Source: Leucobacter sp. Psy1
GTDB lineage: Bacteria > Actinomycetota > Actinomycetes > Actinomycetales > Microbacteriaceae
Assembly: GCF_020096995.1 (NCBI RefSeq)
Contig: NZ_CP083692.1
Location: forward strand, 1,674,001-1,738,000
Direction: 5' to 3'
DNA length: 64,000 bases
In this document: one piece after another, positions 2,367 through 30,572 of the stretch
Layout of the letters: every line of letters starts with the position of its first letter
Numbering within the stretch: position 1 is the stretch's first letter
Notes under the pieces: model-generated
Told to the model about the DNA's origin: nothing
Databases searched by the model: none
Seen by the model: the letters and a program-made list of their open reading frames with translations, nothing else
Position numbers and translations under genes: made by a program

Positions 2367-3428
2367 ATGGCTTCAGACGCTCAGCACAGCTCCGCACGAC
2401 TCGTCCAGCGATCCCCTCGGATCTCGGGTCCAGAACTCGTGGCGACCCTCGTGCCCCCTCCGCAGTTCGACCGCGCGACGTTCGACTCCTACCGTCCCGA
2501 TCCAGACCACCCTTCGCAGGAGGAGGCCAGGGATACCCTGCGCGCCTTCGCGGGGCCGGCGGCCCCCGTCTCGCGGGGCGGTTTCCTCGGGTTCGGCAAG
2601 AAGAAGGCGGAGGCGCGTCAGGGAAGCCCCACCCGTCCAGGTGTGTACCTCGACGGCGGCTTCGGCGTGGGGAAGACGCACCTGCTGGCTGCGACCTGGC
2701 ACGCTACCGCCGGGCGAAAGTACTTCGGCACCTTCATCGAGTACACAGCGCTCGTGGGAGCGCTCGGGTACACGGGGGCGCTCGGAGTGCTTCAGGGGGC
2801 GAAACTCATCTGCATCGACGAGTTCGAACTCGATGATCCGGGCGACACCATGCTGATGACTCGGATGATCGGCGATCTCACCTCAACTGGCTCCCGGATC
2901 GTTGCGACCTCGAACACGCCGCCTAACGCGCTCGGGGAGGGGCGGTTCGCAGCATCGGACTTCATGCGCGAGATCCAAGCGATGAGCGACCGATTCGTCA
3001 CCATCAGGATCGATGGCTCCGACTACCGTCAACGCGAGCTCGACGGCGACGCCGTGGTGCTCAGCGACGATGCGTACCAGTTCGCGCTCGCCGATGCCTC
3101 AGCGGCCGGCGAGCGTATGACGGACGACGACTTCAGCGAGCTGATCGCCCACCTCGCAACCGTCCATCCGTCGAGCTATGCAGGGCTGTTGGACGGCGTG
3201 CAGGCGATCGGCCTCCGCGGCGTCCACGAACTCACCGACCAGTCGGCGGCGCTCCGCTTCGTCGCGTTCGTCGATCGTGTCTACGACGCGCAGATCCCGA
3301 TCGCGGCGACCGGCATTCCGCTGACCACCGTCTTCGGCGGCGGCATGCTCGACGGGGGGTACCGGAAGAAATACCTCCGCTGCATGTCGCGCCTCAACGC
3401 GCTCACGGCCGAGCAGGTGGCCACCTAA
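2367..3428 (+). CDS. zapE: AFG1/ZapE family P-loop ATPase
   Basis: A 353-residue AFG1-type AAA ATPase. The Walker A motif GGFGVGKTH is at about residues 97-105 and Walker B is in LICIDEFELDD. The arginine-rich stretch ATSNTPPNALGEGRF is typical of the family. In Escherichia coli the homologue ZapE acts at the division site; mitochondrial AFG1 assists turnover of respiratory proteins. The actinobacterial role is not established. The ATG at 2367 is chosen over the open frame extending to 2328 because of the adjacent -10 box. It converges with pdxY, leaving only 18 bp between the stops. Confidence 0.88.
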   Translation: MASDAQHSSARLVQRSPRISGPELVATLVPPPQFDRATFDSYRPDPDHPSQEEARDTLRAFAGPAAPVSRGGFLGFGKKKAEARQGSPTRPGVYLDGGFGVGKTHLLAATWHATAGRKYFGTFIEYTALVGALGYTGALGVLQGAKLICIDEFELDDPGDTMLMTRMIGDLTSTGSRIVATSNTPPNALGEGRFAASDFMREIQAMSDRFVTIRIDGSDYRQRELDGDAVVLSDDAYQFALADASAAGERMTDDDFSELIAHLATVHPSSYAGLLDGVQAIGLRGVHELTDQSAALRFVAFVDRVYDAQIPIAATGIPLTTVFGGGMLDGGYRKKYLRCMSRLNALTAEQVAT

Positions 3429-25221: not shown

Positions 25222-26424
25222 ATGCCTGCACAGACTCGCGCATCGCTGAGTGCCGCCGAAGCTCGTCGCGTCGCCTTGGCGGCGCAGGGGTTCACGAATG
25301 CACCTCGACTGCGACAGCGTCGTCCATTCGATCCGGCGCTCGAGCGCCTGCACGTTCTGCAGATCGATTCCGTCAACGTCTTTGCGCGCAGCCACCATTT
25401 GCCGGTCTTCTCCCGGCACGGCGAGTACGCACCCTCAGCGCTGGACGCCCACCTGTGGGAGAGCGGACGATTCACCGAGTACTGGGCGCACGAGGCCGCC
25501 TTCATTCCCGTCGAGGATCGACCGCTCTTCGGCTGGCGCATGGATGAGTACCGCGAACGGCATCGGCGAACCGGACGGGCCCACGAACTGGGTGCCGACC
25601 TCGAGCGCGTGCGCGCTCAGCTCCGGGCGGAGGGCCCCCAGTTCGTGGGCGAGCTCGAAGACGGCCCTTCGGGCACCCGTGGCCCCTGGTGGGACTGGAG
25701 CCATACGAAACGCGCGGTGGAGATGCTGTTCGCGACCGGTGAGGTCGCCGTCGCGGGCAGACGCTCCTTCCAGCGCCGATACGCGCTCGCAGAACACGTG
25801 CTGCCCCAGCGCGCGCTGGTGGCCCTCCCGCGGGAGGAGGCGCAGCGACGACTCGTGGAACGTGCAGCACAGTCGCTCGGTATCGGCACGCTCGCCGATC
25901 TGGCGGACTATCACCGCCTCAAGAGCACCGACGCAAGAGTCGCGGTGCGCGCGTTGGAAGCGGAGGGAATCCTGATCCCCGTGTCCGTGCGGGGATGGCG
26001 CAACGGTCGCGGCGACCCGGAACCCGCATGGATGCATCGCGAGGCCAGGACACCAGGCCGCCTCGCTCCCGATGCCCTGCTCACGCCCTTCGATCCGGTC
26101 GTCTGGTTCCGACCGCGCGCCGAGCGGATGTTCGATTTCCACTACCGCATCGAAATCTACACGCCGAAGGAGCAGCGGGTGTACGGCTACTATTGCTTGC
26201 CGCTCATGGTCGCCGGGCGGCTGGCGGGACGCATCGATCTGAAGGCCGACCGGCAGAACCGAGAGCTCCTGGTGCAGGCTGCGTGGCAGGAGCCCGGCGC
26301 GCCGGCCCGCACCCCCGAAACCGCGGCAGCCCTGCTGATGAGTGCTGCCCATTGGCAGGGTCTCGAACGGGTGCGCTGGACGGGAGCGGGGAACCTCCCG
26401 CTCCCCGGCGTCATCGTCGCGTGA
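25222..26424 (+). CDS. YcaQ/AlkX-like winged-helix DNA glycosylase
   Basis: A 400-residue member of the HTH_42 (AlkZ/YcaQ) family. The key motif is LHVLQIDSVNV at about residues 43-53, that is the Q-phi-D form that marks the AlkX/YcaQ branch, in contrast to Q-phi-Q in AlkZ. E. coli YcaQ removes alkylated bases and unhooks interstrand crosslinks, so a repair role is expected. Three winged-helix repeats would span about 10-350; WFRPRAERMFDFHYRIEIY is the conserved C-terminal core. It stands alone between two terminator-like sites. Confidence 0.82.
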   Translation: MPAQTRASLSAAEARRVALAAQGFTNAPRLRQRRPFDPALERLHVLQIDSVNVFARSHHLPVFSRHGEYAPSALDAHLWESGRFTEYWAHEAAFIPVEDRPLFGWRMDEYRERHRRTGRAHELGADLERVRAQLRAEGPQFVGELEDGPSGTRGPWWDWSHTKRAVEMLFATGEVAVAGRRSFQRRYALAEHVLPQRALVALPREEAQRRLVERAAQSLGIGTLADLADYHRLKSTDARVAVRALEAEGILIPVSVRGWRNGRGDPEPAWMHREARTPGRLAPDALLTPFDPVVWFRPRAERMFDFHYRIEIYTPKEQRVYGYYCLPLMVAGRLAGRIDLKADRQNRELLVQAAWQEPGAPARTPETAAALLMSAAHWQGLERVRWTGAGNLPLPGVIVA

Positions 26425-26509
26425 GCTCCCGATCGACCTCTTCGGGCACGACGCATCGCGCGTCTGCGGTTGCCGGGCCCGTGCTGCGAGCGAACTTTTT
26501 TCGCGGCCC

Positions 26510-26536
26510 TGTCGATCTCGTCGAGTCCCGTGCGTC
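26510..26536 (+). promoter_or_regulatory. ECF42-type promoter of the YCII-sigma operon
   Basis: TGTCGA at 26510-26515, a 17 nt spacer, then CGTC at 26533-26536, 80 bp before the YCII start. From memory, the published ECF42 target motif has TGTCGA at -35 and CG(A/T)C at -10. The match therefore suggests autoregulation by the sigma factor encoded downstream. Confidence 0.6.
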
Positions 26537-26615
26537 ATGATGGTGTCGGGCCACTCGGTTCGACATCACACCCCTCTCGGCGACGCAGCCGGAGCGGAAG
26601 ATGCGAGGAGGAATC

Positions 26616-26963
26616 ATGAAGTACGCGCTCATGCTCATGGGCCACGTCAACGATCCGGCGTGCGGCGAGGAGGGCGGGGCGAGTCCCGAAGAGTTCTTCG
26701 CCTTCGACCAGGAGATCACTGCCGCCGGGGTCGTGGTGTCGTCATTCGCACTTGAGGATCCGGATCAGACGGTGATTGTCAGGAGCGACGATCAGGGGGA
26801 CCGCATGGTCACGTCTGGTCCGTTCGCCGAGGTGCAGGAGTTCGTCGGCGGGGGATACATCATCGATGTCCCGAACGTCGATGAAGCCATCGCCTGGGCG
26901 CGCAAGAGCCCCGCTTCGGCGCCGGGCGGGCACGTCGAAATTCGCCCCCTCGCCCCGTACTGA
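26616..26963 (+). CDS. YCII-related (DGPF-type) protein
   Basis: A 115-residue YCII-domain protein (MKYALMLMGHV), with the DGPF-like stretch TSGPFAEVQEFVGGGYIIDV at about 69-88 and RPLAPY at the C-terminus. The biochemical activity of the family is not settled. The ATG at 26616 has AGGAGGA; an upstream ATG at 26601 lacks a good ribosome-binding site. It lies 3 bp before an ECF42 sigma gene; genes for DGPF/YCII proteins are the standard targets of ECF42 sigma factors. Confidence 0.85.
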   Translation: MKYALMLMGHVNDPACGEEGGASPEEFFAFDQEITAAGVVVSSFALEDPDQTVIVRSDDQGDRMVTSGPFAEVQEFVGGGYIIDVPNVDEAIAWARKSPASAPGGHVEIRPLAPY

Positions 26964-26966
26964 GTC

Positions 26967-28292
26967 GTGGATCTTCTGAGCGGCCCGTCGGCGTCGGCGC
27001 ATCAGGCCGCCCGGCGGGCCGTCAGGGGGATCGACCGCGACGGCCGCGTCCGCATCCTCGCCGCCGTCGCACACCGTGTCGGCGACCTCGACCTGGCGGA
27101 AGACGCAACGCAGGAGGCGCTCCTCCAAGCGTTGAGAACGTGGCCGGAGACCGGAGTGCCCAGGTCGCCGTTGGCGTGGCTCACGACGACGGCGAAGCGG
27201 AAAGCGCTCGACGTGGTGCGACGAGAGCAGGTCCTGGCGCGCAAGCTCGTGCGGCACGGGCGCGCATCCGAACGCGACCCGGCTCCCGCCGGGCTGGATG
27301 ACCCCGCTGAGCAGCATCCGCCCGACGGGCTCGACGACGACCGTCTCGGTCTCTTCTTCGCCTGCGCGCACCCGGTACTGAAGCTCGAAGACCGATTGGC
27401 GCTCACCCTCCGTTTCGTCGCGGGACTCGACTCTGTCGCCGTCGCCCACGCGCTGCTCTTTCCGCTGCCCACCCTGCAGCAGCGTCTGGTCCGCGCCAAG
27501 CGCCGCATTCGCACGCTCGGCGTGCCCTTCACAGCCCCTGCACGGGAGCACCTCGCCGAGCGGCTCACCGATGTGCAGCGCGTCATCTATCTGCTCTACT
27601 CCGAGGGTTTCGCGCGTTCGACGGGAGACGTGCACACCCGAGACGACCTCACCACAGAAGCGATCCGGCTGACACGGGTGCTCCACGAGCTCGTGCCGGC
27701 AACTGCAGAAGTCATGGGAATGCTCGGCCTCCTCCTGCTCACCGAGGCGCGCCGACCGTCACGGATCGACCCGTCGGGGGCGCCGATCCCTCTCGCCGCC
27801 CAGGATCGAACCAGATGGGACCAGCGGCTCATCTCCGAGGGCATATCGCTCACCGAGGCAGCCGCGTCATCGCCGCAGGCTGCCGGATACACGATCCAGG
27901 CTGCCATCGCCGCGGTGCACGCCGAGGCCACGCACTTCGACGCGACCGACTGGGCGCAGATCGCGGTGCTCTATCGGCTCCTGGAGGCGCACGAACCAGG
28001 CCCGGTCGTCCGGTTGGGCCGCGCTGTGGCCCTCGGCAAGGCGCACGGACCGAAAGCAGGGATCCGCCACCTCGACGCACTTGCCGGGGATCCCGTGCTC
28101 GACCGGCTCCGTGCCTTCCACATCGCCCGCGCGGTGACCCTCGAGGCGCTCAAGGACGGTCCCGGCGCTGCCGAGGCCTATCGCCTGGCGCTCTCGGTGC
28201 CGGGTAACACCGCCGAGGACAACTATCTCACTGCCGCCCTTGCGGGCGTGGAGGCGCCTGCCGGGGATCCGGATGTCAGACCCCCGGAGTAG
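26967..28292 (+). CDS. ECF42-group RNA polymerase sigma factor
   Basis: A 441-residue sigma factor. Region 2 is at about 30-95 ([18 protein letters not shown]), region 4 is at about 135-190 ([18 protein letters not shown] then [12 protein letters not shown]). A C-terminal extension of about 240 residues, TPR-like with [13 protein letters not shown], is the hallmark of ECF42 and is required for activity in studied members. No anti-sigma gene is adjacent. The GTG start is 3 nt after the YCII stop. It should drive its own promoter at 26510. The inducing signal is unknown. Confidence 0.88.
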
Positions 28293-30387: not shown

Positions 30388-30413
30388 CCAGCGTGCTCGC
30401 GTGCTCGCGTGCG

Positions 30414-30572
30414 TTCACGTTCCGCTCGGTTTCCACGCTCGGCTCGATCGACACGCCGAACAGGACCGAGCGGAGCCTCAATATCGAGCGGAACGTGAAT
30501 GGCCGCGGACTGAGCAGGGCAGCACGTGAATGGCCGCGGACGGAGCGGAACGTGAACGACCGCGGGCTGCAC
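30414..30572. repeat. Intergenic repeat cluster: three tandem imperfect units plus an inverted copy
   Basis: Three units built on ACGTGAATGGCCGCGGAC occur at about 30492-30515, 30522-30546 and 30550-30572 (the last diverged to GTGAACGACCGCGGGC). Two are preceded by GAGCGGA. The inverted partner TTCACGTTCCGCTCGG is at 30414-30429, complementary to 30485-30499. The cluster fills the gap between uvrB and the convergent molybdoenzyme gene. It could form alternative hairpins and act as a bidirectional terminator, or be a mobile palindromic element. Confidence 0.65.

Follow-up and report, generated by a model that had tools for sequence, protein, structure and literature searches.

Genes of the Operon

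This locus raises the question of what starts transcription of a YCII-sigma factor gene pair that has no anti-sigma gene in its unit, and what form the resulting message takes. The pair lies on the forward strand of the window, i.e., the whole 64-kb stretch of DNA analysed here. Its coding parts were assigned as follows.

26606..26611, forward strand: Shine-Dalgarno sequence AGGAGG, before the YCII ATG at 26616 (read in the sequence)
26616..26963, forward strand: YCII-family protein gene, 115 aa (PF03795, 51 bits, cut-off 24, E 2e-13)
26967..28292, forward strand: ECF42-type sigma factor gene, GTG start, 441 aa, with a TPR-like C-terminal extension (Pfam, AlphaFold2)

The sigma GTG stands 3 nt after the end of the YCII gene. 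Relatives were grouped as clade A, the close subfamily, which comprises eight genomes of the 54 searched in the genus (its own included) and five in two other genera. The sigma factors of five relatives were 61-66% identical to the window sigma, against 28-45% for the 52 other rows of the sigma alignment A2. GGAG preceded the YCII start in all seven aligned clade A leaders.

In the Pfam search, the sigma ORF matched Sigma70_r2 (PF04542; 42.2, cut-off 24) and, at residues 199-299, DUF6596 (PF20239; 112.1, cut-off 27); Sigma70_r4_2 (PF08281) stayed under its cut-off (19.8 vs 25.7). When the A2 profile was compared with PDB sequences, solved ECF factors were matched over positions 4-169, the sigma part only. 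A first-pass annotation, made from the letters and open reading frames, had described a sigma factor with a long TPR-like C-terminal extension and without an anti-sigma partner. The AlphaFold2 model (pLDDT 91.3, pTM 0.86) agrees with the former, as its long C-terminal half is built of helical hairpins, and the structural matches of this half were headed by TPR proteins and consisted mostly of them (Z up to 14.4). Residues 305-433 were matched to the idealised TPR protein 1na0_A with Z 12.2 and rmsd 3.2 over 118 aligned residues. Because helical repeats reach high scores easily, "TPR-like" seems the safe word for the modelled half.

The latter description also held. Within the two-gene unit, which lies between an AlkZ-like gene and uvrB, no anti-sigma gene was found. 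The AlkZ-like glycosylase gene (Pfam) adjoins the unit on one side; on the other, an ORF starts with ATG 10 nt after the sigma end at 28292, and from reading this ORF we take it to be uvrB. Conserved linkage with DNA-repair genes was considered and rejected: the AlkZ-like and UvrB proteins of the window matched their own locus and none of the 13 relatives' loci. In the same comparison the YCII protein matched all 14 loci, with an upstream flank of about 1.1-1.5 kb or more in each and downstream room for UvrB in six only. Judged from these comparisons, the AlkZ-like and uvrB genes are probably not part of the operon. Between the uvrB end and a reverse-strand oxidoreductase ORF, the window also holds an imperfect array around GAGCGGAACGTGAATGGCCGCGGA at 30413-30565 (TRF, 30486-30565, period 31, 2.9 copies), and an inverted copy, GTTCACGTTCCGCTC, lies just ahead of it.

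The YCII protein gave an AlphaFold2 model with pLDDT 86.7. The best solved match was PA1349 (1s7i; Z 12.8, 111 residues, rmsd 2.4), and HI0828/YciI (1mwq) was matched with Z 9.1. The DGPF signature reads SGPF in the window protein. This aspartate was replaced by serine in all seven clade A rows of alignment A3 and kept in 24 of the 26 other rows, and a regular expression found SGPF/Y in nine of the 13 clade A loci and returned nothing for the other four. Since clade A YCII proteins lack the DGPF aspartate, the role of that residue elsewhere is presumably changed here. Genome-wide, DUF6596 was matched once and YCII twice. The second YCII gene (C1:346771-347016) was set aside; it encodes a shorter YciI-type protein, showed no sign of a link to the sigma operon, and lies beside ORFs that, from reading, are presumably flavoprotein-like and alcohol-dehydrogenase-like.

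Promoter and Its Conservation

TGTCGA and CG(A/T)C form the published ECF42 promoter consensus. Upstream of the YCII gene, the following elements were read.

26510..26515, forward strand: -35 element TGTCGA of the predicted ECF42 promoter (read in the sequence; kept in 13/13 subfamily loci)
26533..26536, forward strand: -10 element CGTC, 17 nt after the -35 element (read in the sequence; same spacing in 13/13 subfamily loci)

The earlier annotation had placed TGTCGA-N17-CGTC 80 bp before the YCII gene, and the distance from the end of CGTC to the ATG at 26616 was found to be 79 nt. By string alone, this motif is at chance level: the window contains one match, and shuffles of this GC-rich sequence averaged 0.70, with one or more in 52 of 100. 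The looser form TGTCGA-N16-18-CG(A/T)C, which had been proposed for a genome scan to define the regulon, turned out not to be specific; it matched the 3.25-Mb genome 193 times (99+94), and the reversed pattern gave 15+17.

Such numbers would suit a chance match of the blocks, with the operon driven by some other promoter. We consider this explanation very improbable. TGTCGAT-N16-CGTC was found with identical spacing in all 13 clade A leaders (own included) of three genera, where the promoter begins 74 to 134 nt upstream of the YCII start; blocks, spacing and register were thus kept while the flanks diverged, and in the seven aligned leaders the sequence upstream of the promoter could not be aligned by eye. 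The predicted promoter appears convincing by this conservation, and not by the sequence string alone. The ECF42-YCII reading of the promoter, also made in the first pass, gains from the same 13/13 loci, and TGTCGA / CG(A/T)C is supported by Sinorhizobium meliloti promoters.

Narrower patterns were nearly unique in the genome. TGTCGAT-N16-CGWC had two matches, and the copy away from the operon falls within a same-strand open frame of 708 codons. The clade pattern TGTCGAT-N11-YCRTN-CGTC had a single match, the window promoter, and its reversed form had none. Because the refined promoter is nearly unique, the simplest regulon would be a single operon that regulates itself.

The wider family showed the same arrangement. 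A YCII gene was found just upstream of the sigma gene in 95 of 110 sigma-hit loci, a set that includes weak, non-ECF42 hits and one duplicate (L064, a duplicate of L040, left out of counts). Of the 94 wider ECF42-YCII loci, 86 carried a promoter with a score of 2 or better; as the score was chosen after the loci had been viewed, this hit rate is no independent test, and the score was applied unchanged to later sets. The wider promoters often read TGTCCGG...CCGAC. The operon belongs to the known ECF42-YCII kind.

Stem-Loop at the Predicted Message Start

Two features follow the -10 element.

26545, forward strand: predicted transcription start (G), ninth base after CGTC (extrapolated from S. 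meliloti SMc01149)
26541..26568, forward strand: stem-loop of 12 bp with a 4-nt loop at the predicted mRNA 5' end (26545-26564 if the start is 26545; folding)

Table 1 of PMC6180224 and its note place the RpoE10-dependent start of S. meliloti SMc01149, which was obtained with two methods, at the ninth base following CGTC. Column 9 after CGTC is G in 13/13 clade A leaders. By analogy with SMc01149, G26545 or a base close to it is the most likely start of the mRNA. With a start at this base, the first nucleotide of the message would be a G that pairs within a stem of 8 bp (26545-26552 with 26557-26564). An out-of-frame ATG at 26537 was considered as an upstream ORF and rejected because it precedes the predicted start.

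The stem-loop at 26541-26568 folded with -17.3 kcal/mol and z -5.21, and 0 of 200 shuffles were as good. Conservation extended beyond the -10 block in the aligned clade A leaders. In 11 leaders of the 13, an unbroken stem of at least 8 bp with a 4-nt loop stood at this position; the exceptions were L149, in which the stem is weak, and L041, in which it is mismatched. Over the nine-pair stem, 96.6% of 117 cells were standard pairs, against 24-44% with slid partners. Within clade A, pairing was no better than in a column shuffle, because nearly all changes were wobble changes, i.e., G-U to G-C or A-U, and an arm swap within the clade was not significant (n=6, z -1.4, 32/300 as low). The sense strand outfolded its complement in 12 of 13 clade A loci, L041 being the exception, with p 0.0005, a value that is flattering for related sequences. 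This better folding of the sense strand fits RNA, with its G-U pairs, better than DNA.

The L041 locus (2400-2760, minus strand), from a relative within the genus, is a decayed operon copy. Its YCII frame is broken near the start and its sigma frame contains a stop, with the promoter blocks intact and a mismatch in the leader stem.

Searched against Rfam, 26400-26700 gave no match even at E values up to 10, and 16 loci gave only tRNAs. In a Dactylosporangium record (L100, 890-2385), eleven consecutive tRNA matches lie upstream of the ECF42-YCII operon.

Stem-Loops at Other ECF42 Promoters

A set of 69 non-redundant promoters was drawn from the 110 loci. After 15 loci without YCII just upstream and the duplicate were removed, 94 remained, of which eight lacked a promoter at the score threshold (2 or better); 17 of the 86 left were redundant. 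The set retains six of the seven clade A loci known at that point.

GC-corrected folding z lay above about -0.5 from -90 to +150 nt around the -10 block, except in windows starting at +4 to +12, and it was lowest at +6 to +10 after the block (mean -1.7). Strong folding, i.e., z past -1.5 in the best of five windows, was found at 72% of the 69 promoters. The corresponding shares in the controls were 20% for 1380 random positions and 12% for 32 chance matches of the motif, spread over 30 other places in this genome; of ECF41-type sites, 0/7 passed. Swapping the arms between loci raised the mean from -13.0 to about -9.8 kcal/mol, and none of 300 swaps reached the native value (z -10.2 to -11.6; -9.4 to -10.3 without clade A). 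At five control offsets the swap gave z -1.9 to +0.4. The arm swap results indicate that the stem arms covary across ECF42 promoters. In pairwise compensation, true partners were not favoured overall (pairs preserved, 0.29 vs 0.36 slid; double changes, 0.15 vs 0.06). The fraction of stems of at least 5 bp (46/69 vs 14 to 37 at ten other offsets) was rejected as a measure, being too weak in GC-rich DNA.

A further 41 loci, unused in discovery, were taken from a family draw (18), a phylum draw (16) and plasmid records (seven, six of them from other phyla). Loci without YCII upstream, with a promoter score over 2 or with an N run (L189) had been left out, as had two redundant loci of 43. The family draw was assembled before the hairpin was first noticed, and its leaders were uninspected at that time. 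Strong folding was found in 16 of the 41, and the arm swap gave z -7.7 with 0/300 as low. By set, the swap z was -5.5 for the 18 family loci, -3.4 for the 16 phylum loci and -2.4 for the seven plasmid loci (3/300). The plain folding profile was weaker in these sets, with 39%, 24% and 29% strong at +8 in the family, phylum and plasmid sets, respectively; in the phylum draw the mean z was -0.27 (24% of 17 strong at +8). The stem-loop is common among ECF42 promoters and not universal.

Four loci of the same family (L154, L161, L162 and L170) carried a second leader type after CGTC, GGTGTCAGTATC or near it, without a strong hairpin. The GGTGTCAGTATC-type leader is possibly a conserved alternative at the place of the stem-loop. 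Inspection by eye showed no hairpin in the SMc01149-type leader from S. meliloti.

A stem-loop over the start site might also be a DNA dyad, i.e., an operator bound by a repressor or activator, with no RNA structure involved. Outside clade A the sequences themselves lend this reading some weight. The stems there are mostly near-perfect Watson-Crick, with 28 G-U among 333 pairs (background 250/2345), and sense and antisense folding showed no clear difference (63 loci, p 0.107). A site at the start point also suits a repressor. In all 69 loci, sense folding was better at +6 with p 0.0017, but the same test gave p 0.0065 at -40 and, in the opposite direction, p 0.041 at +100. The arms, however, are highly varied, the 50 strong stems having 31 different inner arms, unlike one operator, and in clade A G-U pairs are frequent (16/58) and the sense strand folds better in 12/13. 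We regard the DNA dyad as unlikely; that the stem-loop acts at the RNA rather than the DNA level outside clade A is what we infer.

Eight further ECF42-type motifs were found in the loci, and three of them precede an ORF with a ribosome site. Two of these three are followed by a stem-loop, namely those in L065 and L126; the one in L141 is not. In L065 (4220-4246) and L126 (4211-4237), the second ECF42-type promoter and its hairpin lie directly downstream of the sigma gene, ahead of ORFs of 222 and 217 aa, which are candidate further targets.

These cases bear on another reading of the RNA, namely that the stem-loop acts on translation or binds a protein, e.g., in YCII feedback or as a temperature or ligand switch, and has nothing to do with stability. 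The leader does lie between the start and the ribosome site, and as a whole it folds with z -2.8 in the window. However, the stem-loop excludes the ribosome site, and a second hairpin that would include this site was not evident by eye in the orthologous leaders. Feedback specific to YCII is also argued against by the stem-loops after two of the three further promoters before other ORFs. A translational or protein-binding role is therefore judged unlikely. In the window itself, pairing is possible between CCCCTCT and the ribosome site AGGAGG (26571-26611); this second leader hairpin was rejected as a conserved feature for the reason just given.

Proposed Mechanism

It is reasonable to consider the locus a two-gene, positively autoregulated ECF42 operon, with a sigma-driven promoter, a partner-gated extension and a 5' stem-loop protecting the mRNA; we hold this combined reading to be fairly probable. 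The sigma factor with RNA polymerase would start transcription at TGTCGA-N17-CGTC upstream of the YCII gene. One message would then yield the YCII protein and more sigma factor, i.e., positive autoregulation. Sigma dependence and autoregulation very probably apply.

Activity may be gated by the TPR-like C-terminal half, probably via a protein partner, with no dedicated anti-sigma gene in the unit. ECF42 extensions have been reported as essential for activity, and a published suggestion is that a partner suppresses it by binding the TPR part. The first mRNA bases, if the start is placed correctly, would sit inside the stable stem-loop. In its likeliest role, the stem-loop would make the 5' end double-stranded and so slow the 5'-end-dependent breakdown of a message that is scarce and self-amplifying. 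According to PMC3997798, 5' secondary structure is stabilising because RppH and RNase E depend on 5' ends that are single-stranded, and the mRNA-protection role is proposed on this ground.

One published result points to a different arrangement, in which the promoter is real, another factor is its main activator and the sigma factor of the operon serves other genes. In the RpoE10 results taken from PMC6180224, overexpression in S. meliloti raised neighbouring target genes and not the organism's own YCII gene. The reason suggested by those authors is that the YCII motif overlaps its mapped start. In the present genome there is one DUF6596 sigma and one match of the clade promoter, so little else is in sight for this sigma factor to serve. 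A separate main activator is thus improbable, and positive autoregulation by the operon's own sigma factor is preferred.

The autoregulated reading can be extended to the whole ECF42 class, in Actinobacteria and sporadically beyond. Its mRNAs, including those of non-YCII targets, may begin with a stem-loop that is free in sequence and fixed in position, and that protects or tunes self-amplifying transcripts. This extension is offered tentatively, with somewhat less than even confidence.

Comparison with Known Systems

The conserved stem-loop at the predicted message start is, provisionally, the new part of this work; the autoregulated sigma arrangement is already known. No description of a stem-loop at an ECF42 mRNA start was found in a literature survey that did not cover Liu 2018 and Wu 2019, and its novelty is provisional to that extent. 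ECF42 factors are widespread, and a stem-loop that is fixed in position and free to vary in sequence would, if true, be a second layer of control. Promoter and stem-loop together would also make a sharper signature when GC-rich genomes are searched for true ECF42 targets; in the present genome, 193 sites were found with the blocks alone.

Stem-loops of this kind have parallels outside the class. The E. coli ompA message carries a stabilising 5'-terminal stem-loop at or near its first base. Stabilising 5'-terminal structure is also treated in PMC3997798, whose reference list names papA; a place at or near the first mRNA base is that predicted here. In contrast to ompA and papA, the present stem-loop is tied to one sigma-factor class; its position is deduced from the predicted start, and its stabilising role is a proposal.

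The YCII protein shares its fold and PF03795 with PA1349 (1s7i) and HI0828/YciI (1mwq), but its clade has serine in place of the DGPF aspartate. Among sigma factors, the closest described systems are the ECF42 factors of Streptomyces venezuelae (Sven_0747, Sven_4377 and Sven_7131), Pseudomonas putida ECF-10 and S. meliloti RpoE10. According to PMC8999054 and PMC6180224, these have sigma2-sigma4 and a TPR-rich C-terminal extension, no anti-sigma gene, a YCII neighbour and a TGTC..CGTC-type promoter, as here. The window sigma differs from them in belonging to a close subfamily of its own genus and two other genera, in a predicted regulon limited to its own operon, in the stem-loop at the predicted 5' end, and in a YCII partner with SGPF for DGPF.
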